Source of the DNA: a virus
DNA length: 43,139 bases
Virus record (IMG/VR): IMGVR_UViG_3300025085_000055
Span: 1-43,139 of that record
Direction: 5' to 3' (one strand)
Shown here: piece by piece, positions 716-32,225 of the stretch
Numbering within the stretch: the first letter of the stretch is position 1
Layout: each line of letters starts with the position of its first letter
The notes under the pieces: model-generated
Told to the model about the DNA's origin: nothing
The model's database searches: none
Seen by the model: only the letters and a program-made list of their open reading frames with translations
Made by a program: the position numbers and the translations under genes

Positions 716-2566
716 ATGCCATTAAGAAAATATGTATTTAAACCAGGTATAAACAAAGAAGGTACTAATTATAGTAACGAAGGTGGCTGGTTTGATGCAG
801 ATAAAGTTAGGTTTCGTAAAGGCAGACCTGAAAGAATTGGTGGATGGGAAAAACAAAGCACAAGTAGTTTTATAGGCACTTGTAGAAAAATATATCCATA
901 CAAATCTTCTGTAGGTACAGATTATATTACTTTAGGAACACATCAAAAATTTTATGTATTAGAAGGAGGGACTTATAATGATGTTACCCCCATACGAGAA
1001 ACAGCGACTAATGCTATTACTTTTTCTGCTACTGATGGCAGCACTACTATAACAGCAACTGATACTGACCATGGAGCAGTTACAGGAGATTTTGTTACAT
1101 TTAGTCAGGCTGTAAGTCTAGGCGGTAATATAACAGCTACAGTTTTAAATCAAGAATATCAAATAAATTCAGTACCTAGTGTTAATACTTATACATTTAC
1201 AGCTACAGCGACAGCTAATTCTAGTGATACTGGTAATGGTGGCTCTGGAGTAGATGGAGCTTATCAATTAAATTCTGGATTAGATGTATATGTATCATCT
1301 ACAGGTTGGGGTGCAGGTACATGGGGTGCAAGTACATGGGGTTCTACAAGTAATTTAGTGTCAAGTAATCAGTTAAGATTATGGTCAATAGATAATTTTG
1401 GTGATGATACTATATTAAATCCTAGGTCTGATGGTATTTATTATTGGGATGAATCATCTGGAACTAATAACAGAGCAGTAAATGTTACAAGTTTAGGTGG
1501 TGCTAGCAATGTGCCAACAAAAACATTTCAAATTATGCTTTCAGATGTAGACAAACACGTTATAGCATTTGGATGTAATCCTATAGGCTCTTCTAATTTA
1601 GACCCTTTATTAGTTAGATTTTCAGATACAGAAAGTATTACTGACTGGACACCAACAGCAACTAATCAAGCTGGTGGAGTACAGTTATCAATGGGTTCTA
1701 CTATAATAGGAGCTTTAAGAACAAGACAAGAAATACTTATATGGACTGATGTAGGTATAGTTTCTATGAGATTTGTAGGAGCACCATTTGTATTTTCATT
1801 TAATGAAGTTGCTAATGGTCCATCTTTAATATCTCCTAATGCAGCAGTTAATGCTAATAATCAAGTTTACTTTATGGATAATGGCGGATTTTATACATAT
1901 GCAGGTAGTGCACAAAGATTACCATGCACTGTATTAGATTATGTATTAAGTGATTTAAACCAAGGTCAAGCATTTAAAGTGTTTGGTGCAGTTAATAGTA
2001 TTGCTAATGAAATTATGTGGTTTTATCCATCAGGAGATAGTTTAGAAGTAGATAAATATGTTATGTATAACTATTTAGAACAAGTTTGGTCTATTGGCAC
2101 TACAACAGATGATTTTGTTAGAACAGCATGGGATGAAGCTTACATATTAAATAACCCTATAGCAGCTAGTAAAAATAGTAGTACAAATAATAATAACTAC
2201 TTGTTCGCACATGAAGTAGGACATAGTAATGATGGTAGTGACTTTACTGCATATATTGAATCAAGTGATTTTGATTTAGACCCAGATGGAGAAAAATATA
2301 TGGCAGTAAATAAGATAATACCTGATATAGAATTTAGGGACCAACAATCTACTACAGATGATGTAACAATAACAATTAAAGGTAGAGATTATCCATTACA
2401 AGATTTGTCTACCTTATCAACAGTATCAGTAACTCCTGACTCTACATTTACAAATACTAGAGCAAGAAGCAGGCAATGTGCTATCAAAGTATCTAATTCA
2501 TCTGCTGATTATGGTTGGAGACTAGGTGATTTAAGATTAGATATAAGACCAGATGGTAAAAGATAA
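716..2566 (+). CDS. Packaged DNA stabilisation / tail protein (P22 gp10-like)
   Basis: A 616-residue virion protein. The N-terminal signature WFDADKVRFRKGRPERIGGW (residues 26-45) is characteristic of the phage stabilisation-protein family used by short-tailed phages to plug the portal after DNA packaging. The middle (about residues 90-230) is Thr/Ser/Gly-rich with beta-structure character, and the C-terminal third has further beta-strand-like segments. It starts three bases after the endolysin stop and its own stop overlaps the next ATG by one base. Assignment rests on the N-terminal signature and the structural gene context, not on a search. Confidence 0.8.
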   Translation: MPLRKYVFKPGINKEGTNYSNEGGWFDADKVRFRKGRPERIGGWEKQSTSSFIGTCRKIYPYKSSVGTDYITLGTHQKFYVLEGGTYNDVTPIRETATNAITFSATDGSTTITATDTDHGAVTGDFVTFSQAVSLGGNITATVLNQEYQINSVPSVNTYTFTATATANSSDTGNGGSGVDGAYQLNSGLDVYVSSTGWGAGTWGASTWGSTSNLVSSNQLRLWSIDNFGDDTILNPRSDGIYYWDESSGTNNRAVNVTSLGGASNVPTKTFQIMLSDVDKHVIAFGCNPIGSSNLDPLLVRFSDTESITDWTPTATNQAGGVQLSMGSTIIGALRTRQEILIWTDVGIVSMRFVGAPFVFSFNEVANGPSLISPNAAVNANNQVYFMDNGGFYTYAGSAQRLPCTVLDYVLSDLNQGQAFKVFGAVNSIANEIMWFYPSGDSLEVDKYVMYNYLEQVWSIGTTTDDFVRTAWDEAYILNNPIAASKNSSTNNNNYLFAHEVGHSNDGSDFTAYIESSDFDLDPDGEKYMAVNKIIPDIEFRDQQSTTDDVTITIKGRDYPLQDLSTLSTVSVTPDSTFTNTRARSRQCAIKVSNSSADYGWRLGDLRLDIRPDGKR

Positions 2567-2769
2567 TGGCAAATCCTAAAACAATAGCATTACCTTTAGC
2601 ACAACAAGAATATAATACGACAGATGAATCAGTTACAAGAAGAATTATAGAACAAGCAGTACAAGATTTAGCTATAGAAATAGATAAATTACAAAAAATG
2701 CAAAGCGTTGTAGCAAGTAAAAGTGTTAAAAGGCATCAATTTTTATTAATGGGAGGCAAAAGTGTCTGA
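2566..2769 (+). CDS. Small structural-operon protein, unknown
   Basis: A 67-residue protein whose ATG overlaps the preceding stop (TAATG). Residues 20-50 form one predicted amphipathic helix (VTRRIIEQAVQDLAIEIDKL), and the last residues are basic. Small proteins of this form commonly sit between the stabilisation protein and tail genes of marine phages. The gene is tightly coupled on both sides, so it is real, but the function is unknown; a minor virion component or assembly factor is an inference. Confidence 0.7.
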   Translation: MANPKTIALPLAQQEYNTTDESVTRRIIEQAVQDLAIEIDKLQKMQSVVASKSVKRHQFLLMGGKSV

Positions 2770-3103
2770 TAATTTAAAAGTCTTAGGACAATCAGCACCT
2801 GCTGCAACAACTGAAACAGTTCTTTATACAGTTCCTGATATGACTCAAACAACTATAAGTTCTATAGTTATATGCAATAGAAATAATAGTAATCATAGTT
2901 ATAGAATAAATGTATCTGTAGCAGGAGCTACAACAAGTAATAAAGAGTATTTGTTTTATGATGTAACAAGTACATCAAATACAACACAAGCTCATGTAAT
3001 TGGTATAACATTAAATCAAACAGATGTAGTAAAAGTGTATGCAAGTGCAGAACACTTAAGCTTTAGTCTTTTTGGTTGCGAAACAACAGAGGAAGATAGA
3101 TAA
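2762..3103 (+). CDS. Hypothetical virion protein, beta-rich
   Basis: A 113-residue protein with a GTG start that overlaps the end of the upstream gene by eight bases and is preceded by GGGAGG. The sequence is Thr/Ser/Val-rich and looks like a small beta-sandwich (for example TTISSIVICNRN, residues 30-41). Similar short proteins in phage tail operons are tail-fibre or head-decoration components. That role is inferred from composition and location only. The stop overlaps the next start by one base. Confidence 0.7.
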   Translation: MSDNLKVLGQSAPAATTETVLYTVPDMTQTTISSIVICNRNNSNHSYRINVSVAGATTSNKEYLFYDVTSTSNTTQAHVIGITLNQTDVVKVYASAEHLSFSLFGCETTEEDR

Positions 3104-5919
3104 TGGACATTCAACAACAAACTAAAAATGTAGCAGCTCAAGGTCGTTTTGGCGATTCTATGCTTCTTCATGTTAATCCTGCTGAAGTAAAAGGATTAGC
3201 ATCTGCTGTACCTTTAACTATAAATCCAGAAACAGGACAACCTGAAGCTTTCTTACCTTTCTTAGCACCTGTATTAGGCTCTATGCTAGCACCTACAGTT
3301 CTTGGAGCAATAGGTGTTACTGGTTTATCAGCAGGAGCTATGGCAGGTATAGGAGCAGGTTTAGCTACATATGCACAGACAGGTGGTTCTGGTTCTAAAG
3401 CATTACTATCAGGACTTACAGCAGGATTAGGAACAAGAGCATTACAAGGAGTAGCACAAGGAACACAAGCAGGAGTAGATGCAGCAATAGCAACACCACC
3501 AGTAGACCCAAGTTTTGTTGGACCAATGCCTACACCAGTTGCTCCAGTAACTCCTCCAGTTGCTCCACCACTAGATAAAAGTATAACAGCAGGTGAATCT
3601 CTTAAATCAATGTTTACTCAACCTGACTTAGCAGGTCAAATGGGTGGTTTTGATGCAGGTATGAAAAGTTTAGCAGGAGCAGCAATGACTCCTGCTGGAA
3701 TGGCAGCAGGAACAGCAGCAGGTACAGCAGGCGTTATAGCATCACAAGAAGAGTTTGAAAGACAAATGGCTCAACTTACAGAAGATGAAGAAGAACGCAA
3801 AAGAAGAATGTATGAAATGTACCCTGAACAAATACCAATGAAAGAAGGTGGTAGAACTGGTTATTTTATGGGTGGTATGATGGAAGATAAATTTGTACCT
3901 GATGCTCCATATGGTTATGAAAGTGATTATAGTGGATTAAATGGTATAGGTGGTGGTTTTAATGCTTATAGTACACCTCCAAGAAGAAGAACTAGACCAA
4001 TAGGTCGTGGTTTTATGCCAGGTTTTATGCCTGAGTATTCTTATTTTGAAGGCATGAATCCAAGTGCTACAGCTTTAGGTTATGACCCATTAGGTAATTT
4101 TCAAAATCCTCAATCTTATCAAGGAGGATATAGCCAACCTTCTAGAAGAAGAGGTGGCTTTGGTGGTCTTTTGGGTGGTAGTCGTAGAGGCTATAGACCA
4201 CAACCTCAATTACAACCTCCTCAATTTGCAGGATATGGCAATCCATTTATGCAATCACCTAGCTATCAAGGATTCTATGGTGTACCACAAATGCAACAAA
4301 CTTTAAATCCTTATGCAAGATTTACACAACAACCAATGCCTTATCAACCATATCAACCATATGTACCTCCAGTAGAAACACCTCCAGATGATGGTGGTGG
4401 AACTGGTGGTGGTGGAACTGGTGGTGGTGGAACACCTCCTATAGACCCACCAATAGATGATGGGGGTGGTCGTAAAGGAGCTGTTAAAAATCCTGACCCT
4501 ATAGCACCACCAGATGATTTTGTTAATCCTATTATTAATCCACCTGTAGGCGGACCAGTAGAACCTCCTGTATATTATCCTGGAGGAACACCAGGTTTTT
4601 ATGATAGACCAGTACCTAAACCTGTAAAACCTATTATAGAACCTATAAATACACCTCCTCCTACAGTAACAATACCTATTGAAGGTGGAGCAGATGTAAC
4701 AATACCTGACTTTAGTAGACCTCAACCACCTGCACCAGTTATACCACCTGTTATGGCTCCACCTATGAAAAGACCAGAGCCACCTATGTCTATAGATAGA
4801 ATTAGTAATTATGATTTAGATAGAAAATTTGGTGCAGTGCCTATTTCAGAACCAGCACCTACAGATGATATGGCTAGACTCGCTCCTGCACAATTAGCAT
4901 CTATAGGAACTCCATTGTCACAAAGTGCTTTAGACCAACAAGCAGCAATGAGTAGTTTACAAGCTAATAGTATAGATAATTTGTTAAAAGGACCTAAAAT
5001 GTCTAATGATAGCGATAGATTTAATAGGGACCGAATTGCTATAGCAAATCCTATAGCACTACCTCCTATAGCACCTCCTGTTCAATCAGTAACTACACCA
5101 CAGCCTATAGGTCAAGAACCACAACCTCCTCAAACTAGTGGTATACCAGTAACAGGTGGTGGACCATTAGGTAGTGGAATATTACCTGTAGCTAATTTAC
5201 CTTCAGGACCAACAGCTCCTCCAAGTAATACTGGTAGACAAATACCATCAGGACCAGCTATGGGTGGTATAAGTGCAGTACCTACACCAGCAGCACCAGC
5301 TAATCAAAAAGGTAATAATCCTCCTACTATGTCCATTGGTGGACCAGGTGGTGGTAGACGCGGTATCTTTGGAGCACCTATGTTTGCAGCAGGTGGAGAT
5401 ACTGACTTACCTAATGAAGGCTTAGAAGCTTTATCTAAAACAGAAAAAGGTAGAGAAGCTGTAGAAGCAATGGGTTATCAAGAAGGCGGTCAAACAGATA
5501 TGATGCAAGACCCAGTAACACAAGATGTAATTATGTTTATTCTTGGTGAGACTGATAATGAAAATGCAATCAATGCTTTCGTAGAAAAATATGGTGCTGA
5601 GCAGTTTATGTTCTTAAGAGATAAAATCTTAAAACAAGCAGCAGGTAATCCAGATGCACAAACAGAAGGCTTAATACAAGGTAATGGCAATAGCGGAATG
5701 GCTGATGACTTACCAGGTGTTATAGGCAATAAAGAAAAGATAGCTGTATCGCAAGATGAGTTTATAGTTCCAGCAGATGTTGTATCTATGTTAGGAGATG
5801 GTAGTTCAGACGCAGGCTCTAAACAACTATATAATATGATGGATAGAGTTAGACAAGCTAAAACTGGCGGAACAACACAAGCTCCACCACTTAATCCACA
5901 AAAGGTATTACCAGCATGA
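3103..5919 (+). CDS. Large Pro/Gly-rich virion protein
   Basis: A 938-residue low-complexity protein. Residues 40-130 are Ala/Gly-rich and hydrophobic (GAIGVTGLSAGAMAG). A central stretch of about residues 250-790 is dominated by Pro, Gly, Gln and Tyr with a TGGGG repeat near residues 430-445. The C-terminal 150 residues look folded and include SQDEFIVPADVVSMLGDGSS, a segment known from structural proteins of marine phages. It also has a GGRTGYFMGG motif near residue 249 that recurs in the 8071 gene. It overlaps both neighbours by a few bases. A tail or internal virion role is inferred from context; the exact family is not certain. Confidence 0.72.
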   Translation: MDIQQQTKNVAAQGRFGDSMLLHVNPAEVKGLASAVPLTINPETGQPEAFLPFLAPVLGSMLAPTVLGAIGVTGLSAGAMAGIGAGLATYAQTGGSGSKALLSGLTAGLGTRALQGVAQGTQAGVDAAIATPPVDPSFVGPMPTPVAPVTPPVAPPLDKSITAGESLKSMFTQPDLAGQMGGFDAGMKSLAGAAMTPAGMAAGTAAGTAGVIASQEEFERQMAQLTEDEEERKRRMYEMYPEQIPMKEGGRTGYFMGGMMEDKFVPDAPYGYESDYSGLNGIGGGFNAYSTPPRRRTRPIGRGFMPGFMPEYSYFEGMNPSATALGYDPLGNFQNPQSYQGGYSQPSRRRGGFGGLLGGSRRGYRPQPQLQPPQFAGYGNPFMQSPSYQGFYGVPQMQQTLNPYARFTQQPMPYQPYQPYVPPVETPPDDGGGTGGGGTGGGGTPPIDPPIDDGGGRKGAVKNPDPIAPPDDFVNPIINPPVGGPVEPPVYYPGGTPGFYDRPVPKPVKPIIEPINTPPPTVTIPIEGGADVTIPDFSRPQPPAPVIPPVMAPPMKRPEPPMSIDRISNYDLDRKFGAVPISEPAPTDDMARLAPAQLASIGTPLSQSALDQQAAMSSLQANSIDNLLKGPKMSNDSDRFNRDRIAIANPIALPPIAPPVQSVTTPQPIGQEPQPPQTSGIPVTGGGPLGSGILPVANLPSGPTAPPSNTGRQIPSGPAMGGISAVPTPAAPANQKGNNPPTMSIGGPGGGRRGIFGAPMFAAGGDTDLPNEGLEALSKTEKGREAVEAMGYQEGGQTDMMQDPVTQDVIMFILGETDNENAINAFVEKYGAEQFMFLRDKILKQAAGNPDAQTEGLIQGNGNSGMADDLPGVIGNKEKIAVSQDEFIVPADVVSMLGDGSSDAGSKQLYNMMDRVRQAKTGGTTQAPPLNPQKVLPA

Positions 5920-6395: not shown

Positions 6396-8071
6396 TGAGA
6401 TATTTTAAAGGCGGTGGTGGTTCATCAGCACCAACAGAAACAACAGTAACACAAACAGATTTACCAGAATACGTTCAACCGTATTTTGAACGACTTCTTA
6501 AAAGAGGAGAAGCTGAATCTAATCAACCTTATACACCTTATCAAGGTGAAAGATTAGCTTATTTTTCTCCTGATGAACTAACATCACAAGCAATGACAAG
6601 AGGGTATGCACAAGCTGGCACTCCTCAAGAATATCAATTAGCTTCACAAAGAGCAGCACAATTAGGTGGACCATATGGGTCTGGTTATCAAGCTGATTAC
6701 TTAGGCAATACATATGATGCACAAGGATATGGTTCAGGCTACCAAGCTGGACTAGTAGGTTCAGGTTATCAAGCAGGACAACAAAGAGAAGCTTATGATG
6801 CACAATCATATCAACCAGGTTATCAAGCACGAGGATTACAATCTGGATATCAAGCACAAGATAATTTTTCTACATATAATCCATTTGCAAGACAATCAGG
6901 TTATCAAGCAGGTCAAGTAGGACCAGAATTTCAACAGTTAGGATATGAAGAAAACATAAATAGATTTATGTCTCCATATCAACAAGCTGTAACTGATATA
7001 CAAAAAAGAGAAGCAACACGACAATCAGAAATGATGGGTGATAAAACTGCTGATGCTGCGGCTATGTCTGGTGGTTTAGGTGGTTATCGTGAAGCTATTA
7101 TGCAAGCAGAACGTGAGCGTAATTTAGGTACACAACTAAGTGATATACAAGCTAAAGGCAGTCAAGCAGCTTTCCAATCAGCACAACAACAATTAGCAGC
7201 AGAAAGAGCATCAAGTTTAGATGCTTCTAAATTTGGTTTACAACAATTTACTGCTGGAGAACAAGCTAGACAAGCACAAGAACAAATGCAACAACAAGCT
7301 TTCCAAGTAAGTGAAGCAGCTAGACAAAAAGCAGCAGAAATGGGTATGACTGCTAGACAACAAAATCAAGCAGCAAGACAAGCTGAAGAACAATATAGAC
7401 AGTCTGCATTTGCTCAAACAGAATCTGCACGTCAAGCACAAGAAAAGTTTGGACAAAGTGGTTTCCAATTAACAGAAAGTTCTTTCCAAAAACAAGCAGA
7501 TATAGATTTAAAAAGATATCAAGCTGGAGAAGCTGCAAAACAACAAGCAGCAAAACTTGGTCTTACAGCAGCACAACAAAACGAAGCAGCCAGACAGGCT
7601 CAAGAAAAGTTTATGCAAAGTGCATACGCTACATCAGAGAAATCATTTCAAGAACAAGGCAAACAAGACATTGCTGCTTATCAAGCCAGAGAAGCTGCTA
7701 GGCAGGCTCAAGAGAAGTATGGACAATCAGCTTATGATATGTCACAGCGTTATGGTCTAGCCTCTGTAGACGCTCTTAGAGGTGCTGGTGGAGATATACA
7801 AGATGATGTAAGGCAAAGAATTGCTGCATTACAAGGCATAGGTCAAGGTAATAGAGCAATGCAACAAGCATCTATGGATATGGGATATCAAGACTTTTTG
7901 AGACAACAAAACTATTCTAATCAACAGTTAACTCAATTAGCTGGTTTATTAAGAGGTGTGCCAGTAACACCACAACAACAAATAAGTACCTATCAACAAC
8001 AACCAGGATTATTCCAGACCGCAGTAGGAGCTGGATTACAAGGACTAGGTTTATATAGAGGAATGAGCTAA
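6395..8071 (+). CDS. Gln/Ala-rich repeat virion protein
   Basis: A 558-residue protein starting at an ATG that overlaps the previous stop (TAATG). Residues 95-180 hold repeated SGYQAG/PGYQA units (at least six). Residues 230-480 are long predicted helices built from repeated units of the form ARQAQEKFGQSAF, rich in Gln and Ala. The N terminus is Gly-rich. This architecture, next to the giant internal protein, suggests an ejected or internal virion protein; coiled-coil assembly is likely. No family is recognised beyond similar proteins in uncultured marine phages. Confidence 0.72.
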   Translation: MRYFKGGGGSSAPTETTVTQTDLPEYVQPYFERLLKRGEAESNQPYTPYQGERLAYFSPDELTSQAMTRGYAQAGTPQEYQLASQRAAQLGGPYGSGYQADYLGNTYDAQGYGSGYQAGLVGSGYQAGQQREAYDAQSYQPGYQARGLQSGYQAQDNFSTYNPFARQSGYQAGQVGPEFQQLGYEENINRFMSPYQQAVTDIQKREATRQSEMMGDKTADAAAMSGGLGGYREAIMQAERERNLGTQLSDIQAKGSQAAFQSAQQQLAAERASSLDASKFGLQQFTAGEQARQAQEQMQQQAFQVSEAARQKAAEMGMTARQQNQAARQAEEQYRQSAFAQTESARQAQEKFGQSGFQLTESSFQKQADIDLKRYQAGEAAKQQAAKLGLTAAQQNEAARQAQEKFMQSAYATSEKSFQEQGKQDIAAYQAREAARQAQEKYGQSAYDMSQRYGLASVDALRGAGGDIQDDVRQRIAALQGIGQGNRAMQQASMDMGYQDFLRQQNYSNQQLTQLAGLLRGVPVTPQQQISTYQQQPGLFQTAVGAGLQGLGLYRGMS

Positions 8072-9864
8072 TGGCAAATTTAGTAGAACTATCAAATCAA
8101 TTAGAGGATTTTCCAGAGCAACAACTTGTGCAAATGTCACAAGACCCAAACTCTATGTACCCTTCTTATTTAGTATTGTCTGAAATACAAAGACGTAATC
8201 AAATGAGAAAGATGTATGAAGCTCAACAACCAAAACCTGAAACAACTGTTGCTGAAGAAGTAATAGGTGAGTTTGCAGGTCAACAAGGTTTACAAGGAGC
8301 TATGGCTCAATCACCTGGTCCACAAGATGCTTTCCCACCAAGTGATATGGGTAACATGGCTCCGCCTTCTCCTATGCAAATGATGGCTAGTGGCGGAATT
8401 GTTGGATATAAAAATAAAGGCAAAACAGAATATAAAGAAGCTGCTGATGATTATGGCAAACAATTACTAGAAATTTTTGAAAAAGAAGGAAGATATAAAA
8501 AAAGATATAGTGATTATGAAAAAGGAGAAAGATTTACTTATCCTTTAACTCCAAGAGATTATGTTGTAAGTGATGAAGAATATAAAAGATTAAAAGAAGG
8601 TAACTTTGTAATGGGTGAAGGTGCTTTACAAGAATATAGACCATTTCTTATGTTATTAAATGCTTTAGATGGTGAATCTGGTGCAAGGTATATGCCAGAA
8701 TCAGAAGTAAAAGGACTTAAAGCAAAATTAAAAGCTTCCATAATAGAAGATAAATTATCTCAAATGGGTATGGCTGCTGGTGGTAGAACAGGTTATCAAA
8801 CAGGTGGTAGTTTAGGTTTAGGTGGAGATAGTTTAGCTGGAACATTTACTAATCCAAATGAAGTTTCTATAGAAGAAAAAGATGCAGTTGATAAAAATAT
8901 TGGACAACTTTATGAACAATATGGTGCACCTACTTTAAAAGCTATGAAAGTTTTAAATGAAGATGGAAGTATTAATTATATTAATTCTGCTTTAGCTTTA
9001 GCATCTATTAATCCTACTTTTAGATTAGGTAAAGCTGCTGTTGGATTAGGTGGTAGAACAATACAAAAATTTGCACCAAAATTATTAGAAAAAGGAAAAA
9101 ATTTTATTACAAAACCTGGAGTAAAAATACAAAATCCTGCTTTAAAAACAGGAGTACAGTATGGTGATGATGTTATTGACCCTAAAACTGGAGCTAAAAT
9201 AAAACAAGTTATTACTGGTCCTAGAACATTAAAAATACCAAGTGCAAAAGGTTTATTAAGAGGTGCAGGTAATCTTGCTTTACCAAGTTTAGTTGTAGGA
9301 AATTTAATTGAATCAGGTATGGAAAGAAAAGCAATAGAAAAAGAAGAAGCTAGATTATTAGCAGAACAAAAAGCAGCAGAACAAGAAAGATTATTAGCAG
9401 AACAAGAAGCTAAAATAGCTTCAGAAAAAGCAAAACAAGAAGCTGCTATACAAGCACAAATAAAAAAAGAAAAAGAACAAAAACAAGCTGATATGTTAGT
9501 AGGTCTTGGTGGAGCTATAATGAGTGCTAAGAATATAGGAGAACTTGGTACAGGAATTTCTGATGTATATACTGGAATACAAACAAGAGAAGATGCAAAA
9601 AGTTTAACTGGATTGCAAGGCAGATTATTACAAGCACAAGCATCACAAATTGAAGCAAATATAGCTGGTATGGATTTAAAAGAATTACAAGCATCAGCAA
9701 AAATAATTGGTGATGGATTAGAAAATGGAGCTTTAACTGTAGAAGAATATGGTCCTACATTCCAGGCTATAGCTGACAAAATAGCATTACTACAAGGTTT
9801 ACAACCTAAACTTGGTGGAGAAACTATTTTAGCTGCTAATGAAAAAGTTTCAGGCGGTAATTAA
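8071..9864 (+). CDS. Virion protein with Lys/Glu/Ala coiled coil
   Basis: A 597-residue protein coupled to the previous gene (TAATG). Residues 1-45 are helical, followed by a Pro/Gln-rich linker and an ASGGIVGYKNKGK motif. A GGRTGYQTGGSLG segment lies near residue 240. Residues 425-470 are a highly charged coiled coil (EKEEARLLAEQKAAEQERL), followed by a hydrophobic Gly-rich segment (MLVGLGGAIMSA, about residues 472-483) and a helical C-terminal domain. It probably belongs to the injected or tail-tube set together with the 9876 gene. This is inferred from composition and order. Confidence 0.7.
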   Translation: MANLVELSNQLEDFPEQQLVQMSQDPNSMYPSYLVLSEIQRRNQMRKMYEAQQPKPETTVAEEVIGEFAGQQGLQGAMAQSPGPQDAFPPSDMGNMAPPSPMQMMASGGIVGYKNKGKTEYKEAADDYGKQLLEIFEKEGRYKKRYSDYEKGERFTYPLTPRDYVVSDEEYKRLKEGNFVMGEGALQEYRPFLMLLNALDGESGARYMPESEVKGLKAKLKASIIEDKLSQMGMAAGGRTGYQTGGSLGLGGDSLAGTFTNPNEVSIEEKDAVDKNIGQLYEQYGAPTLKAMKVLNEDGSINYINSALALASINPTFRLGKAAVGLGGRTIQKFAPKLLEKGKNFITKPGVKIQNPALKTGVQYGDDVIDPKTGAKIKQVITGPRTLKIPSAKGLLRGAGNLALPSLVVGNLIESGMERKAIEKEEARLLAEQKAAEQERLLAEQEAKIASEKAKQEAAIQAQIKKEKEQKQADMLVGLGGAIMSAKNIGELGTGISDVYTGIQTREDAKSLTGLQGRLLQAQASQIEANIAGMDLKELQASAKIIGDGLENGALTVEEYGPTFQAIADKIALLQGLQPKLGGETILAANEKVSGGN

Positions 9865-22557: not shown

Positions 22558-22716
22558 TTATGCTCCTTTAGGTAAAAAATTAAGTTTGGTTTTAATTGAC
22601 TTAACATAATTGATATCTACATTAAGCATGGTTCTAAGATGTGCCATTTGTTGTGGTGTTATTTTGTCTAACAAGATTTGTAAGAGTAATATTTCCTTTT
22701 CATCTAGCGTTGTCAT
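22558..22716 (-). CDS. First gene of early operon, small hypothetical (52 aa)
   Basis: A 52-residue helical protein (MTTLDEKEILLLQILLDKIT...). The ATG at 22716 is preceded by GGAGG at ideal spacing, within a hairpin whose loop is UUGGAG. Its stop abuts the next ATG. As first gene behind the leader and promoter it is likely well expressed. The fold may be a helical bundle; no function is recognised. Confidence 0.72.
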   Translation of the reverse strand: MTTLDEKEILLLQILLDKITPQQMAHLRTMLNVDINYVKSIKTKLNFLPKGA

Positions 22717-26852: not shown

Positions 26853-27112
26853 TCTTGCACCTCAATCTCTATAATCTCATCATCTTTTGTAAAGGCTAAA
26901 TGTTTTGGATTAGGAATGTTTAAGTTCTCCCTTTCCTTGTATAAAACATCTTGCACCTTATGATTGATTGAAACCAAAGTATTAAAGTATCTAACAAGTG
27001 CCAAATCAATATCTGATTTTTCATCTAGTTGTCTATTTATCTTTGTATAGATTTCGTTGCAAGTTCCAATGTTCACTTTTAAAGTAAACTCTAGTAGTTC
27101 TCGATTAGTCAT
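26849..27112 (-). CDS. Hypothetical acidic helical protein
   Basis: An 87-residue protein (MTNRELLEFTLKVNIGTCNE ... IIEIEVQE) that overlaps both neighbours. It is mostly helical in its first 60 residues and ends in an acidic strand. It lies in the cluster that also encodes the ADP-ribosyltransferase-like and MoxR/VWA-like proteins but has no hammerhead leader of its own. Function unknown. Confidence 0.65.
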   Translation of the reverse strand: MTNRELLEFTLKVNIGTCNEIYTKINRQLDEKSDIDLALVRYFNTLVSINHKVQDVLYKERENLNIPNPKHLAFTKDDEIIEIEVQE

Positions 27113-27347
27113 TTTTAATTTCTCCGCTATCTACTTCCATTTGACTATCTTCGCCAAAGTCAGTGTATTTAAAAGTTGATGTAATTCCACCATCTTTTTC
27201 ACAATCGCCCTCTTTTGAAATATTAGGCAAACATATCGCGTCATGAATTTCACTTTCAGTTAGCTTTTTGTCAGACACAATTTCAAAATATCTTGTATCA
27301 GTAGATTGTTCACTTACTTCGTAAACATATTCTTTTGTTTTATTCAT
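27105..27347 (-). CDS. Hypothetical protein behind hammerhead A
   Basis: An 80-residue acidic protein. The ATG at 27347 is preferred to one 57 bases upstream because that longer start lies inside the ribozyme and the Shine-Dalgarno hairpin sits directly before 27347. The sequence (MNKTKEYVYEVSEQSTDTRY ... GEIKND) suggests alternating strands. It is the first of three coupled small genes, so the ribozyme and SD hairpin in front of it may set expression of all three. Confidence 0.68.
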   Translation of the reverse strand: MNKTKEYVYEVSEQSTDTRYFEIVSDKKLTESEIHDAICLPNISKEGDCEKDGGITSTFKYTDFGEDSQMEVDSGEIKND

Positions 27348-27350
27348 AAT

Positions 27351-27368
27351 AATTACCTCCAAGTAATT
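27351..27368 (-). promoter_or_regulatory. Shine-Dalgarno hairpin, loop UUGGAG (gene at 27347)
   Basis: Arms AAUUAC/GUAAUU (6 bp) close the loop UUGGAG, three bases before the AUG. It differs from the other copies by paired changes in the stem. Confidence 0.7.
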
Positions 27369-27380
27369 GAATAAGTTAAT

Positions 27381-27439
27381 AAACTGTTTCATGCCTTTTG
27401 GCAATCATCAGTAGAAAATACACATTTTCTATACAGTTT
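27381..27439 (-). ncRNA. Hammerhead ribozyme A (type III)
   Basis: Read on the minus strand: stem III AAACUGU/ACAGUUU (7 bp); cleavage triplet GUA, cut expected between 27432 and 27431; stem I UAGAAAAU-GUGU-AUUUUCUA (8 bp); core CUGAUGA (27411-27405); stem II UGCC-AAAA-GGCA flanked by a U-U mismatch; core GAAA (27390-27387). All invariant core positions of the hammerhead are present in the correct order. It lies in the leader of the gene at 27347. Confidence 0.9.
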
Positions 27440-27478
27440 TGCAAAAATTGACTTCGTGAGACTTCGCCTGTTGCAAAG

Positions 27479-27526
27479 TTAAGAGTAGGTTAAGGGCATA
27501 AGATACCCAAAAAAACCCACTCTTAA
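27479..27526 (-). repeat. Leader hairpin upstream of hammerhead A
   Basis: Inverted repeat TTAAGAGTAGG (27479-27489) and CCCACTCTTAA (27516-27526): 11 pairs on the transcript including one G-U. An inner GGGUA/UGCCC hairpin sits in its loop. It belongs to an unusually long gap of about 240 nt between two cistrons. Confidence 0.6.
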
Positions 27527-27589
27527 ATCGCATCAGAAAAAAACGAATCTACCAGTTTCTCGTACCTGCGTACAAAAAATATTTACTGG

Positions 27590-28252
27590 TCAATCTTCTT
27601 TGCGATAGATTATCTCGCTTTCATTTCTATCACTAAGATAAGCAATAGCATCTGATTTATTGATAGTCTTTTCAAAGATATTAGTTTCATGCCTATTTGT
27701 AACATTTGATTCATCACCCATGTTTCCATTCATTACCCACCTGTTAGCAAACCATTCCGCTTTTTCTTTATCCAAAGTCCATGAATAACCCTTATCATCA
27801 ATACCACCTCGATAAATCGTTATGGTATTTGGCAACTCATTAAAGAACTTAGTATCTTCTTCATCCATCATTAAATGTGAATCAGAAAATTCCAAGAACA
27901 AAAGTTGTTCCCATGCTAAATGATTTTCATAGACATTTTCAGTATCAGTCCAAACATTAGCTATCACTTCCCAATATTCTTTTTTGTTTGGCTTCCACCA
28001 ATCCTCCAAAGCATCAAGAATAGATTGAACTCGATAGGCTCGTTCATGCAACCAAAGATAAGAACTGATATCTTTATCCTTGATAGCTTCAGCAACCTTT
28101 TCTTTTTTGAAGTCATAAACTTTATTAGCTTGGCTTATAACCATTTCATGGTTAGACCAAATACCAATAAAATACTTATGATGAATCATTTCAATCCCAC
28201 CCTCGCTAACAGTCGCAATACTGTTAGCAAGTTCATTGTTTAATTTACTCAT
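27590..28252 (-). CDS. Putative ADP-ribosyltransferase
   Basis: A 220-residue protein with the R-S-E pattern of mono-ADP-ribosyltransferases: Arg148 in TIYRGG, the S-x-T of YSWTLDKEKAEWFAN (Ser157, Thr159), and Glu211-Ser-Glu213 in RNESEIIY as the E-x-E motif. Such phage enzymes (for example T4 Alt and ModA) modify host RNA polymerase or other proteins using NAD. The N-terminal 130 residues are helical and may recognise the target. The gene has its own hammerhead and SD hairpin. The assignment is from motif order; the target is unknown. Confidence 0.68.
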   Translation of the reverse strand: MSKLNNELANSIATVSEGGIEMIHHKYFIGIWSNHEMVISQANKVYDFKKEKVAEAIKDKDISSYLWLHERAYRVQSILDALEDWWKPNKKEYWEVIANVWTDTENVYENHLAWEQLLFLEFSDSHLMMDEEDTKFFNELPNTITIYRGGIDDKGYSWTLDKEKAEWFANRWVMNGNMGDESNVTNRHETNIFEKTINKSDAIAYLSDRNESEIIYRKED

Positions 28253-28256
28253 TTTC

Positions 28257-28272
28257 TACACCTCCAAGTGTA
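28257..28272 (-). promoter_or_regulatory. Shine-Dalgarno hairpin, loop UUGGAG (gene at 28252)
   Basis: Arms UACAC/GUGUA (5 bp) around UUGGAG. The C-G pair at the third position replaces U-A of the other copies on both sides of the stem. Confidence 0.7.
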
Positions 28273-28273
28273 A

Positions 28274-28339
28274 TTTTCTGTTTCGCATATCCCTAAATTA
28301 GGATGGCTCATCAGTTTGGTTAATTCCAAATACAGAAAA
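28274..28339 (-). ncRNA. Hammerhead ribozyme B (type III)
   Basis: Minus strand: stem III UUUUCUGU/ACAGAAAA (8 bp); cleavage triplet GUA, cut between 28331 and 28330; stem I UUUGG-AAUUAA-CCAAA; core CUGAUGA (28314-28308); stem II of 23 nt closed by GC/GC with an AUCC/GGAU helix inside; core GAAA (28284-28281). It starts seven bases after a 17-bp hairpin and ends next to the SD hairpin of the gene at 28252. Confidence 0.92.
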
Positions 28340-28345
28340 ACAGAG

Positions 28346-28386
28346 GGTGGAAAAAAATATTTACTGGTCAAATATCTTTTCCCACC
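28346..28386 (-). repeat. Long intercistronic hairpin, loop GACCAGU
   Basis: A 17-bp stem with only Watson-Crick and two G-U pairs (28370-28386 with 28346-28362), loop GACCAGU, starting about 10 bases after the VWA gene stop and just before hammerhead B. No U-run follows, so it is not a standard terminator. Confidence 0.75.
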
Positions 28387-28395
28387 ATTCCATTG

Positions 28396-29748
28396 CTAAA
28401 GATTTTCCATGTTGATATGTACTGTTTCGCCAAATGGATATTTATAATATTCTCGCATATAACTTTCGTTTGTACTTAACGCCCATATAACTGGAACGCT
28501 AGGCTCAACTTCAGCATCAACGCTACAATATCCATCAGTGAAATATACAAAAGCAATAACATCTTCAGTATCTTCAGTTTCATCGTTGAACAAATTAAAG
28601 GGTGGTTCGAACCTAGTTCCTCCTCCACCTCTTAAATTGAACTCCAACTCTTCATTATCCAAATCAAATTCATCCCACCATTCTCCAGTTGTAGGATTCT
28701 TTGCAATTGATGTATCACAATAAGTTACTCTAACTTTATTGATACCGCACTCTTCACATAAGTTTTGAGTTTCAGTAGCAAATATATTGAGTTCTTGTTG
28801 AGATACACTCGCGGAAGTATCTATTGCAACTACAATTTCTCCGCCTTGCGGTTCGTTGTCATTGCTAGGTAAATTGACACCCCTCCAAGAATGTCTTTTA
28901 TTTAGTCTGCTCCACGTTGGATTATTGCTCTTAGCGGAATTTAATAAATCTCGCATTACATCAACCCAATCAACATATGTCTCATTGAGTTTTTGCACCG
29001 CACCATTCATTGTAGAAGTACCACCTTCAGAACATCCCTCTAACTTATCTGCCATCAAGATTGCTCGTTGTATGTTTTCTTTTACTTCCGCCATAGCACT
29101 ATCAGATAATGGATTACCCTCTTCATCAGTTGGCATCCAAACTTCACCCATTGATGGTTTCATATCTGCTAGTTCATCCAATAAGGATTTACCGCTTCCA
29201 TTTCCATCTTGGCTTTCATCTTCGTTGCCATCATCAGAATCAGAGTTACCATCATCATTTTGGGAATCGCCTTCGCCACCTTCAGATTCATCAGAATCTT
29301 CAGACTTAGATTTCATTTCTTCAATGGCATCTTCTAAGGCTTCATCATCATTCATTAAAGTTCTATAGACTGCTTCAGAACTCATGCCTTGATATCTTCT
29401 ATCAAGCAATCCATCTTTAGGCAGTTCCATATTCAAGTCATACTTAATCCATGCATTGATAACATAGTCAGTTGCTACATTCCAAACCTCGTGATTTCGT
29501 TTAGCTTTTCTTAATGGATGCTCCCATATTACATGGCTAGCTTCGTGGACTAATACCGCTTGAATTTCATCATCAGTTAATGTCTTAACAAATTCATCAT
29601 TCCAGTAGATATTGACTCCATCAGTAGCCATCGTTTCACATCTATCGCTAGCTTCAATCAATTCAAGACTAAGAAGCATACTTGCCATTCCTATATTGCC
29701 TTTCATCAATTTCGCTCTAGCTTTTATTATTCTATTTTCACTATTCAT
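28396..29748 (-). CDS. VWA-like / metallopeptidase-like protein (DUF2201 type)
   Basis: A 450-residue protein of two domains. The N-terminal domain has HEASH at residues 68-72 (VLVHEASHVIWEH), a zinc-peptidase-like motif. An acidic linker (about residues 149-186) follows, then a C-terminal von Willebrand A-like domain with the MIDAS core Asp310-x-Ser312-x-Ser314 (AIDTSAS) and a FTDGYC strand. Proteins of this form act with MoxR AAA+ ATPases in metal-insertion or complex-remodelling chaperone pairs. The partner ATPase is encoded two genes upstream. Hammerhead C and an SD hairpin precede it. Confidence 0.85.
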   Translation of the reverse strand: MNSENRIIKARAKLMKGNIGMASMLLSLELIEASDRCETMATDGVNIYWNDEFVKTLTDDEIQAVLVHEASHVIWEHPLRKAKRNHEVWNVATDYVINAWIKYDLNMELPKDGLLDRRYQGMSSEAVYRTLMNDDEALEDAIEEMKSKSEDSDESEGGEGDSQNDDGNSDSDDGNEDESQDGNGSGKSLLDELADMKPSMGEVWMPTDEEGNPLSDSAMAEVKENIQRAILMADKLEGCSEGGTSTMNGAVQKLNETYVDWVDVMRDLLNSAKSNNPTWSRLNKRHSWRGVNLPSNDNEPQGGEIVVAIDTSASVSQQELNIFATETQNLCEECGINKVRVTYCDTSIAKNPTTGEWWDEFDLDNEELEFNLRGGGGTRFEPPFNLFNDETEDTEDVIAFVYFTDGYCSVDAEVEPSVPVIWALSTNESYMREYYKYPFGETVHINMENL

Positions 29749-29765
29749 AATACCTCCAAGTATTA
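29748..29765 (-). promoter_or_regulatory. Shine-Dalgarno hairpin, loop UUGGAG (gene at 29748)
   Basis: Arms UAAUAC/GUAUUA (6 bp) around UUGGAG; the 3' arm reaches the A of the start codon. Confidence 0.7.
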
Positions 29766-29770
29766 ATTTT

Positions 29771-29844
29771 ATTGATACCTAAAAAATATTTAACTGGTAA
29801 ATATTCTCTAGGTTTCTGCTTATCTCAAAGCTTCATCAGTCAAT
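29771..29844 (-). ncRNA. Hammerhead ribozyme C (type I)
   Basis: Minus strand, circularly permuted relative to the others: stem I AUUGA (29844-29840) pairs with UCAAU (29775-29771); core CUGAUGA (29839-29833); stem II GCUU-UGAGAU-AAGC with flanking A-A; core GAAA (29816-29813); stem III is a 16-bp hairpin with loop CCAGU (29813-29777); cleavage triplet GUA, cut between 29776 and 29775. Stem I begins directly after the upstream stop codon. Confidence 0.85.
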
Positions 29845-30813
29845 TTATTTCTTAAACATATTGTCTAAGAAACCTCCCTTTAATTCATCAATGGAATCTT
29901 CTAAATCATCCGCAACTTGCTTTCGCTTGTTTGCACCATAACTTGATTCATCCCTTAGTGAATCTACATCATTAATTGAAGCAAATACGCCTACCAACTT
30001 TTGATGTGCATCAGCAATCATTTTGTCATCGCCTAAAATGTCTGCATTGATACTAGGTAATGTATCTAAGAACCCTCGCAATTTATCAAAGCTTGAGTTC
30101 TTAAAGAACCCTCCCTTTTGTTTGTCGTTAGGGTCATAGGATTTTAGCTTGTCCGCTAAATGTCCTACTGATTCAAGTAAAGCTTCTACAGTAGTTCTAG
30201 CAATCGTTTCAACATTTTTATTTGCTCGTTTAAGAGCATCGTTTTCAATTTTTGCTTTCAGCTTTTCTGATACATTTAATCTGATATCCTTGGTATCGAA
30301 TCTAGGAACAGTACCCAATTCAAAATCGAATCTGAATTTAGTTTCTATTTCCTCAACGCTAGGATAATCAGATAATTTAAAGGCATTACCAAGTTTCACT
30401 TTATTGGCTTCAATCAAGTTGTCATAGTTATCAATAAACTGTTTAACCTCTTTTTCAAAATCCATCTTAGCTTGGTCAACCCTATTCATCAGCGTATCTA
30501 GTTCGCGGTTAGGACATAGTCTCCAACCACTTAGAACCTTCCCTTCAAAATCACTTGTATTGTCATCCCAAGGGACAGTTAAAGGGTAGTACACATCGTT
30601 TCTAAATTTGTTGATAATTCTACGAAAATACTTATTCGTATCTTTACCAAAAATGTATTTAGCAACGTGTAATGATTCGCTCATTGCTTCTTGGTCTATC
30701 GCTAAACCTTCCTTCAAATACTTGTCTGATTTTACTCCGCTAGGGTGCTTCGTATTAAGGCGAACTAAAGTCGCATTTTCAGATAAAGTATTTACATTAT
30801 TTTCTTTTTTCAT
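29845..30813 (-). CDS. DUF3150-like protein of MoxR/VWA cluster
   Basis: A 322-residue protein. The ATG at 30813 is chosen because the SD hairpin sits directly before it and the longer frame to 30849 would run through the ribozyme. The sequence is mostly helical, with a conserved-looking FRNDVYYPLTVPWDD segment near residue 68 and a long helical region from about residue 130. It resembles DUF3150 proteins, which are often encoded beside MoxR ATPase and VWA genes. It could be the substrate adaptor of the ATPase/VWA pair. Family assignment is from memory of the pattern. Confidence 0.65.
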   Translation of the reverse strand: MKKENNVNTLSENATLVRLNTKHPSGVKSDKYLKEGLAIDQEAMSESLHVAKYIFGKDTNKYFRRIINKFRNDVYYPLTVPWDDNTSDFEGKVLSGWRLCPNRELDTLMNRVDQAKMDFEKEVKQFIDNYDNLIEANKVKLGNAFKLSDYPSVEEIETKFRFDFELGTVPRFDTKDIRLNVSEKLKAKIENDALKRANKNVETIARTTVEALLESVGHLADKLKSYDPNDKQKGGFFKNSSFDKLRGFLDTLPSINADILGDDKMIADAHQKLVGVFASINDVDSLRDESSYGANKRKQVADDLEDSIDELKGGFLDNMFKK

Positions 30814-30830
30814 ATTACCTCCAAGTAATA
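30813..30830 (-). promoter_or_regulatory. Shine-Dalgarno hairpin, loop UUGGAG (gene at 30813)
   Basis: Arms UAUUAC/GUAAUA (6 bp) around UUGGAG, with the A of the AUG in the closing base pair. Confidence 0.7.
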
Positions 30831-30836
30831 AAGTTT

Positions 30837-30886
30837 GCTGTTTCATCATTTTTGAATCATCAGTCAGAATTACATTCTGATACAGC
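30837..30886 (-). ncRNA. Hammerhead ribozyme D (type III)
   Basis: Minus strand: stem III GCUGU/ACAGC (5 bp); cleavage triplet GUA, cut between 30881 and 30880; stem I UCAGAAU-GUA-AUUCUGA (7 bp); core CUGAUGA (30863-30857); stem II UCA-AAAA-UGA flanked by a U-U mismatch; core GAAA (30844-30841). It lies between a long hairpin and the SD hairpin of the gene at 30813. Confidence 0.88.
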
Positions 30887-30888
30887 TA

Positions 30889-30936
30889 GCGGAAAAGGAA
30901 TATTTACCAGTCAATAATAAATATTTCCTCTCCCGC
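30889..30936 (-). repeat. Long intercistronic hairpin, loop with ACUGG
   Basis: An 18-bp stem with one bulged A (30918-30936 with 30889-30906), loop UUAUUGACUGG. It starts about 12 bases after the stop of the MoxR-like gene and ends three bases before hammerhead D. Equivalent in place and size to the hairpin before hammerhead B. Confidence 0.7.
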
Positions 30937-30947
30937 CAATCAATCAA

Positions 30948-32012
30948 TTAAATCTCAATATCTTGATTTTCTACCTTGAACTTTGAGTATGAACTGGAAT
31001 CTTTTAATTCAGTTCTCAAAGTCGTTAGTTTTCTAACAAAGAATATTGAAAATTCAACAGTCGATAGTTGCTTCACATAGGCTAATGCATTGTCGAACCA
31101 GTCGTATACATCGCTATCTTTTGCTTTACCAATTACATCAACTAATGCAATCGTTGTGGCATAAGATAATCCAGCACTATCAACAAGTTCTACATCCTTA
31201 CCCTTACATATATCAGCAAGGTTAGGCACGTTGTTTTTCAATGAAATAAAGTTCATCAATTCAATGCTAGCATTTTGCCCAACATCGCCTTCAAATAATT
31301 TTTGCATTATTTGTTTAGGCGGATTGGTTTTCAATGTATCGCTTAACCTTGTCCAACTTCTTGGACTTGGCTGAGGGTCATTGCATTTAGGGTCGAACTC
31401 CCAAAGTAGTTGTGGCATATATCCAATTAATCCTTGGACATCCATATGAACATCATTCTTATCAGCCCATGCTAACCAGTCCTCAACATCGTGAGTAAAC
31501 TGAATTGCAGTCGTTCTATCTTGGCAATGCCTAAGAATTTTATTCGCACCACTTCTATCAGTATGCCTATTGCCTGCTAGTACAATTTTCCATCCATTTG
31601 GGAAAACATAATCGCCAATTCTACGCTCTTCGTTTTGCCCTTTTGGGTCTAATAATTGTCCTATCGTTGCTTGCACGCTTGAATGTGCTTGAGCAAATTC
31701 ATCTAAGAAAAATACCCCTTCGCCACCTCTAGGTAAATTCCCTAGAAACGCCTTCTTTTGAGTACCATCTTCAATGTAAGGCAATCCGCCTAAGTCGATA
31801 GATTCAACTAACCCCAATCTAAAAGAAATGAATCCAAATTCATTATCTTTAGGATTGACTGAATCAGTCAAAGTCCTATCTTCCGCTAGTTCCTCCGCAA
31901 TCTCTTTAACAATTGCGGATTTACCTACGCCAGTTCCACCAATTAAGAATGGAATATTATTCCCTTTCAGAACTGATAGACATGACATTTTCGCTTCGCT
32001 TGGTTTAAACAT
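30948..32012 (-). CDS. MoxR-type AAA+ ATPase
   Basis: A 354-residue ATPase. The ATG at 32012 (MFKPSEAK) follows GGAGG and the SD hairpin. Walker A is GGTGVGKS (residues 25-32), Walker B GVFFLDEF (99-106), and sensor 1 is in VLAGNRHTDRSG. The layout and the L-x-x-S-I-D-L-G-G-L-P segment before Walker B match the MoxR/CbbQ clade. Such ATPases form hexamers that remodel protein complexes with a VWA partner. That partner is encoded two genes downstream in the same operon, so the pair is probably functional together. Confidence 0.88.
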   Translation of the reverse strand: MFKPSEAKMSCLSVLKGNNIPFLIGGTGVGKSAIVKEIAEELAEDRTLTDSVNPKDNEFGFISFRLGLVESIDLGGLPYIEDGTQKKAFLGNLPRGGEGVFFLDEFAQAHSSVQATIGQLLDPKGQNEERRIGDYVFPNGWKIVLAGNRHTDRSGANKILRHCQDRTTAIQFTHDVEDWLAWADKNDVHMDVQGLIGYMPQLLWEFDPKCNDPQPSPRSWTRLSDTLKTNPPKQIMQKLFEGDVGQNASIELMNFISLKNNVPNLADICKGKDVELVDSAGLSYATTIALVDVIGKAKDSDVYDWFDNALAYVKQLSTVEFSIFFVRKLTTLRTELKDSSSYSKFKVENQDIEI

Positions 32013-32016
32013 AATT

Positions 32017-32032
32017 AATACCTCCAAGTATT
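32017..32032 (-). promoter_or_regulatory. Shine-Dalgarno hairpin, loop UUGGAG (gene at 32012)
   Basis: Arms AAUAC/GUAUU (5 bp) around UUGGAG, four bases before the AUG of the MoxR-like gene. Confidence 0.65.
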
Positions 32033-32033
32033 T

Positions 32034-32091
32034 ATAAGTTTCTTGAACCCCATAATTAGGATTCTCTTCAGTGTGTTAATTCACAGACTAT
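32034..32091 (-). ncRNA. Divergent hammerhead-like element E
   Basis: Minus strand: cleavage triplet GUC (32088-32086); stem I UGUG-AAUUAA-CACA with the same loop as ribozyme B; core CUGAAGA (32071-32065; the fifth position is variable in hammerheads); stem II GAAUCC/GGGUUC (6 bp); core GAAA (32042-32039). Two As are inserted between stem II and GAAA, and stem III (AUAGU with ACUUAU) has a bulge. It may be weakened or decayed. Confidence 0.6.
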
Positions 32092-32225
32092 TGGAGTAGT
32101 CGCAACTGGAAGTTATCGTTTCCGCATCCATGCTTTTGTTTCAGATTATATCGAATCCTTTCAGCACTTCTAATGGTACGTGTTTTGTTTTGAAGCTTCT
32201 CTCTATCTTCGAGGGTAATTCTCAA
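32088..32225 (-). CDS. Small ORF upstream of MoxR-like gene (45 aa)
   Basis: A TTG-initiated frame (TTG at 32225, or at 32234) with GAGGG nearby, encoding ITLEDREKLQNKTRTIRSAE from residue 3 and a basic, helical remainder, with its TAG inside stem III of element E. The composition is protein-like. It overlaps another short frame, 32203-32325, in a different phase, so the two may be one gene joined by a frameshift. Confidence 0.42.
   Translation of the reverse strand: MRITLEDREKLQNKTRTIRSAERIRYNLKQKHGCGNDNFQLRLLQ

Follow-up and report, generated by a model that had tools for sequence, protein, structure and literature searches.

Why would a virus place a self-cleaving RNA in every long gap of a single operon? 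The question is raised by a stretch of viral DNA of 43,139 nucleotides (nt) (IMG/VR virus record IMGVR_UViG_3300025085_000055, positions 1 to 43,139), here termed the window, whose minus strand encodes an operon of five genes: a MoxR-like AAA ATPase, a DUF3150 protein, a VWA protein and two accessory genes. The gaps between these genes measure ~95-240 nt, and each of the four holds a complete hammerhead ribozyme. We describe these ribozymes, their counterparts in related phages and the hairpins that flank them, and weigh what the array may do.

Four hammerheads in one operon

An initial annotation of the window had reported four minus-strand hammerheads 5' of start codons of the operon, and a descriptor search confirmed them, recovering the same coordinates and predicted cuts. 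In the list below and throughout, gaps and their ribozymes are lettered in the direction of the operon, gap A being the one upstream of MoxR.

30837..30886, minus strand: hammerhead B, type III, GUA triplet; predicted cut 30881/30880, 67 nt 5' of the DUF3150 start
29771..29844, minus strand: hammerhead C, type I, GUA triplet; predicted cut 29776/29775, 27 nt 5' of the VWA start
28273..28339, minus strand: hammerhead D, type III, GUA triplet; predicted cut 28331/28330, 78 nt 5' of the 27590-28252 gene
27380..27439, minus strand: hammerhead E, type III, GUA triplet; predicted cut 27432/27431, 84 nt 5' of the 80-amino-acid gene

All four copies contain the core C3U4G5A6N7G8A9 and G12A13A14, an A15.1-U16.1 pair and, at the cut, a residue H17 that is not G, the triplet being GUA in each. 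The strict form of the descriptor called for CUGANGA, stem II and GAAA, then a stem III of 4 or more base pairs (bp) with U16.1, then H17 and a stem I of likewise 4 bp or more; it found three of the four, against 0.017 matches per dinucleotide-shuffled window. A relaxed version found all four and one extra match, against 0.05 per shuffled window with a maximum of 2 (n=100), and a chance origin of the four hammerheads is excluded by these shuffles. The extra match, 8440-8511 on the plus strand, lies inside coding sequence and is regarded as spurious. That the hammerheads are decayed relics was also considered, and rejected or ranked low. Copy E is the best conserved of the four. The copy at 29771 had been read correctly as a full hammerhead, although its circularly permuted type I form had gone unnoticed; its stem I is open, and the AU hairpin that forms its stem III is long and has an ACCAGU loop.

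Covariance models identify the same elements. Run in E-value mode, the Rfam family RF00008 matches hammerhead D (28275-28338) with 33.0 bits, against a gathering threshold of 48.5, and E 3e-4. A model of our own, R1, was built from 30 relatives with hammerhead B included and copies D and E left out; it matches copy E (27378-27442) with 52.3 bits and E 5e-11 and copy D (28272-28341) with 34.8 bits and E 2e-6, and scores copy B, whose sequence is part of the model, at 63.8 bits (30832-30891). Over the whole window R1 gave no further match below E 1.

The genes of the operon are as follows.

30948..32012, minus strand: MoxR-like AAA ATPase (phrog_1297)
29845..30813, minus strand: DUF3150 protein (PF11348, E 4.5e-7)
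28396..29748, minus strand: DUF2201 metallopeptidase-like / VWA protein (phrog_1314)
27590..28252, minus strand: accessory gene (phrog_4776), with ADP-ribosyltransferase-like motifs by eye only
27105..27347, minus strand: 80-amino-acid accessory gene that differs from phage to phage

The name ADP-ribosyltransferase, given to the 27590-28252 gene at the outset, found no confirmation, phrog_4776 being listed as 'unknown function' and the product having no Pfam match and no significant PDB match.

Ribozymes at the same junctions in related phages

A protein search with the VWA protein yielded 36 IMG/VR loci, almost all of which carry several hammerheads on the operon strand, and a DNA pattern scan added further, more distant phages. 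In most of these added phages, too, 3-5 hammerheads surround the MoxR-DUF3150-VWA trio even though the proteins are just 35-57% identical, and in 15 whole records, the window among them, R1 matches are confined to one short stretch, the operon. Comparison with related phages thereby supports the array, the gene order and the processing logic that had been proposed for the window. The uncultured source phages are probably marine, since both the IMG/VR sample numbers and marine terminase relatives point that way.

The helices change in a coordinated manner. Pairing holds in 92.6% of the cells of the type III alignment, against 69.9% after shuffling, percentages that are partly a matter of construction because the descriptor presupposes the core and minimum helices. 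Two-sided change occurs in 13 of the 18 pairs, 139 cells are changed on both sides (42 when shuffled), and the covariation score of 0.701 compares with 0.235 for shuffled alignments and with 0.15 or less when the pairing is slid by 1-3 columns. Cleaner and fairer evidence than the pairing percentages is a junction table anchored on proteins, in which the junctions were placed from the proteins alone and then checked for descriptor ribozymes:

Junction A (upstream of MoxR): type I hammerhead in 43 of 50 loci
Junction B (MoxR-DUF3150): hammerhead in 45 of 55 loci
Junction C (DUF3150-VWA): hammerhead in 37 of 53 loci
Junction D: hammerhead in 45 of 46 loci

Inspected by eye, most exceptions proved to be either variant hammerheads or gaps too short (14-47 nt) to accommodate a ribozyme. 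The variants include long type I forms (L042, L043), the form of the fifth element described below and, at junction B of L047, L053, L056, L081 and L091, hammerheads in which two additional helices separate A9 from stem II. These expanded hammerheads are a natural form and could be a sensor. The sole natural core mutant seen is that of L025 (CUGACGU), in which core bases are lost and the linker is kept. The ribozyme type is exchanged at fixed sites: junction C carries type I in the window and five close relatives and type III in 31 other loci, and junction B carries type I in L026. Selection for cleavage at that site is the best explanation for such an exchange of one type for the other.

A blastn search of GenBank phages with the operon returned zero matches. 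Four cultured terminase relatives (HTVC027P, HTVC023P, 023Pt_psg01 and DSL-LC04) have no hammerhead in the first 50 kb of each, and four cultured phages with MoxR/DUF3150 homologues (pVa5, Axy13, Fifi011 and Tunturi_3) have none near those genes. In a pattern scan of bacterial genomes nearly all matches were attributable to chance, with the exception of L191, a metagenome-assembled genome of Candidatus Levyibacteriota (JACROF010000008.1), where four type III matches lie on one strand within 8 kb (7788-7850, 7083-7133, 5243-5309 and 1567-1632, all minus strand), one of them directly 5' of a cupredoxin-like open reading frame with TTGGAGG. Among the phages themselves, L013 carries three similar type I hammerheads in series at 2470-3615, spaced ~500 nt apart, and small accessory genes there seem to have been inserted along with their own ribozyme header.

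Flanking hairpins and the fifth element

Each ribozyme of the window is followed by a second structured element that the initial annotation had missed, a hairpin of 4-7 bp whose short GGA(G) loop, mostly UUGGAG, presents the Shine-Dalgarno (SD) sequence.

32017..32032, minus strand: SD hairpin of MoxR, AAUAC-UUGGAG-GUAUU
30813..30830, minus strand: SD hairpin of DUF3150, UAUUAC-UUGGAG-GUAAUA
29748..29765, minus strand: SD hairpin of VWA, UAAUAC-UUGGAG-GUAUUA
28256..28273, minus strand: SD hairpin of the 27590-28252 gene, UUACAC-UUGGAG-GUGUAG
27351..27368, minus strand: SD hairpin of the 80-amino-acid gene, AAUUAC-UUGGAG-GUAAUU

All but one (65) of the 66 unique sites have the stem; when the right arms are reshuffled among sites, 22 do on average and 31 at most. 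The covariation score of the stem is 0.745 (0.234 shuffled). Nearly every scanned ribozyme is followed by an SD and an ATG, with a median of 76 nt from cut to ATG. Within the window the UUGGAG hairpin is restricted to the five array genes and one other, at 22558-22716 on the minus strand; this sole non-array case has no hammerhead in its 280-nt upstream gap. In CsrA/RsmA sites, too, a GGA lies in a hexaloop that overlaps the SD on a stem of variable sequence, the array differing in its loop, UUGGAG. CsrA was rejected as reader of the GGAG loop: the loops are mostly UUGGAG rather than ANGGA, and the window, which does not extend to the host, contains no CsrA gene.

Stable hairpins also precede most of the cuts, a feature that the initial annotation had likewise missed.

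30887..30938, minus strand: stable hairpin between the MoxR stop and ribozyme B; z -7.4, present in the minimum-free-energy (MFE) fold of the whole gap
28346..28386, minus strand: stable hairpin between the VWA stop and ribozyme D; z -4.5, 18 bp
27440..27592, minus strand: structured element 5' of ribozyme E, kept in relatives; z -5.6, some covariation with double-changed pairs

The first of these would become the 3' end of the MoxR messenger RNA (mRNA), and the third may be a 3'-end stabiliser or a separate RNA. In gap C the ribozyme itself supplies the stable hairpin, as its stem III. The gap D hairpin is the one considered for features of an intrinsic terminator; 4 of its 18 pairs are G-C, and its U run lies inside the 3' arm. 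The whole-gap MFE fold of gap D contains 3' hairpin, hammerhead and SD hairpin all together, as does that of gap B, but there with stem II shifted. A recurrent motif, AATATTTACYRGT, occurs 29 times in the window at up to two mismatches, on both strands, against 10.4 expected (positions include 18333, 25407, 26222, 26477, 27578, 28356, 29793 and 30899); it sits in the array hairpins of gaps B, C and D and before other genes, and its candidate roles are operator, promoter and hairpin loop.

Upstream of MoxR lies a further element.

32037..32101, minus strand: GACUACUCCAAUAGUC hairpin and hammerhead-like core with AA inserted before GAAAC; would-be cut 32086/32085

The initial annotation had called this a divergent fifth copy (32034-32091), rightly so, for it is a hammerhead derivative with two A residues inserted before G12. 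Neither the descriptor nor the R1 model matches it. Its stem III comprises 3 bp in the window and 3-4 bp overall. The order GACUACUCCAAUAGUC, stem I, CUGANGA, stem II, AAGAAACU recurs in ~20 contigs and 12 sequence versions, in which stems I and II covary (UGUG/CACA, CACG/CGUG, UCUG/CAGA, UAUG/CAUA and CUUG/CAAG for stem I; GAAUCC/GGGUUC and GCAUCC/GGGUGC for stem II). Since both stems vary with their pairing kept, the fifth element is a conserved RNA. It would probably cut poorly, weak activity being expected from the AA insertion before G12 together with the short stem III. Its invariant loop, CUCCAA, is exactly complementary to the UUGGAG of the SD loop, and in the MFE fold of gap A it pairs with the MoxR SD. 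We hypothesise that cleavage after AGUC would detach this anti-SD sequence, which could then refold as its own hairpin.

Probable processing of the operon and comparison with known systems

The reading that we consider probable is that the operon RNA cuts itself co-transcriptionally into separate, end-protected and independently translated single-gene mRNAs. Each long junction of the MoxR-DUF3150-VWA-accessory operon would carry a cassette composed, in order, of 3' hairpin, hammerhead, SD hairpin and start codon, and each hammerhead would cut itself during synthesis of the polycistronic message. The upstream mRNA would then end in a hairpin beside a 2',3'-cyclic phosphate, and the downstream mRNA would begin with a 5'-hydroxyl (5'-OH) in or near a hairpin and display its SD in the GGAG loop. 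By the general rules of RNA decay, such 5'-OH and hairpin ends would slow degradation. Expression of each gene would in this way become independent of its neighbour, and the accessory genes would become exchangeable. The sequences, their pairing and covariation, and where the elements lie and recur are observed; cleavage in the cell, end protection and insulation are what we infer from this arrangement.

Several points, among them the partly built-in pairing percentages, weigh against such processing. The single polycistronic message is itself presumed, and cleavage at the four sites is predicted from sequence. At gathering thresholds Rfam 15 gave zero matches in the window and in 12 relatives. 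The covariance-model search suggested in the initial annotation was divided in outcome, failing at the Rfam gathering cutoff and significant with RF00008 in E-value mode and with R1; we take the miss as a failure of the library threshold, not as a biological criterion, because the tests with our own model and of covariation were strong. Position 10.1-11.1 is U.U rather than G-C in most type III copies, which could slow them. In the MFE fold of gap E within a long context the full hammerhead does not appear, and that of gap C retains the hairpins of stems II and III and lacks stem I.

Among the alternatives, the best placed, though unlikely, is that every gene is transcribed from a promoter of its own, the ribozyme serving just to trim that gene's leader (leader standardisation). 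RiboJ-type parts do function on single genes (PMC7536230), and the excess of AATATTTACYRGT, which occurs in the gap B, C and D hairpins, would suit such promoters. In junction C of the window, however, AATATTTACYRGT lies inside the ribozyme's own stem III, and at junction A a promoter would have no room in the gap, since the type I ribozyme already begins right at the upstream gene's stop codon. Sigma-70-like sites are not enriched either, the region containing 20 against 28.5 in shuffles. Read-through is favoured over separate promoters because of this deficit and the position of the junction A ribozymes.

Less probable again are conditional switches, in which a ligand, a protein or anti-SD refolding would regulate cleavage and turn the downstream gene on or off. 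The exact anti-SD of the fifth element, paired with the SD in the gap A fold, and the two extra helices of the expanded gap B hammerheads speak for such control, whereas the four complete copies of the window resemble ordinary constitutive hammerheads and no conserved aptamer is common to them. Least of all do we credit the proposal that the hammerheads are linkers, providing homology for cassette exchange or acting as parts of mobile cassettes with cleavage incidental, for although the accessory genes upstream of junction A vary between phages while the ribozyme is common to them, and L013 has its serial type I copies, the type III copies are junction-specific with helices that change compensatorily, and linker homology leaves the mutual replacement of types I and III unexplained.

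An extension of the processing model is more tentative than that model itself: a lineage-wide, all-RNA, one-cut-per-gene system might exist, with exchangeable headers of ribozyme and SD hairpin that turn every cistron into a protected mRNA of its own, some of the headers having become switches, the anti-SD of the fifth element masking the MoxR SD until cleavage releases it to form its hairpin.

Multiple hammerheads in phages are not without precedent. The initial annotation, in holding that single hammerheads were known in phages and that a serial array would amount to a new way of processing an operon, claimed too much, since multiple sets were published in 2011. Perreault et al. 2011 (PMC3088659) described multiple hammerheads flanking individual prophage genes, proposed that long phage RNAs are processed into single-gene mRNAs, and found that three tandem sets cleaved in vitro and a triple set in E. 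coli. Several same-strand hammerheads flanking genes are common to those clusters and the present array. The gene identities there are inconstant, whereas here one operon carries them at every long junction in many phages, together with a 3' hairpin, a covarying SD hairpin and swaps between types I and III. New, then, are a hammerhead kept at every long operon junction, the composite cassette to which it belongs, with an SD hairpin whose stem covaries, swaps of ribozyme type and two core variants; we found no paper describing these features in a search that lay mostly outside subscription journals. The reason for phages to keep hammerheads was left open in 2011, and the processing idea is now directly testable, because the ribozyme is kept at the same junctions across deep divergence, swapped in type and paired with a ribosome-binding-site (RBS) hairpin.

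With Rfam RF00008 and type I hammerheads generally, the phage copies have in common the core CUGANGA and GAAA, U16.1-A15.1, H17 and three helices; they differ in scoring below gathering and in the frequent U.U at 10.1-11.1, and the phages add the AA-insertion variant and the expanded variant with two extra helices. An entire group of hammerheads from phages escapes the current Rfam thresholds. Theta ribozymes, HDV-like RNAs of gut phages (PMC10879173), are also self-cleaving elements of phage genomes; theirs is another fold, and the authors of that study link them to tRNA-based recoding rather than to mRNA junctions. In the order of its parts the cassette is like RiboJ, a synthetic insulator of a hammerhead and a 23-nt hairpin (Lou et al. 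2012, as represented in PMC7536230). Both RiboJ and the phage cassette place a hammerhead and then a hairpin at the RBS. RiboJ, as that source presents it, is engineered, stands behind the gene's own promoter and has a hairpin of fixed sequence; the phage cassette is natural and serial, its hairpin carries the SD itself on a stem that differs by junction, and it may likewise insulate. The phage cassette is a natural counterpart of this widely used synthetic insulator.

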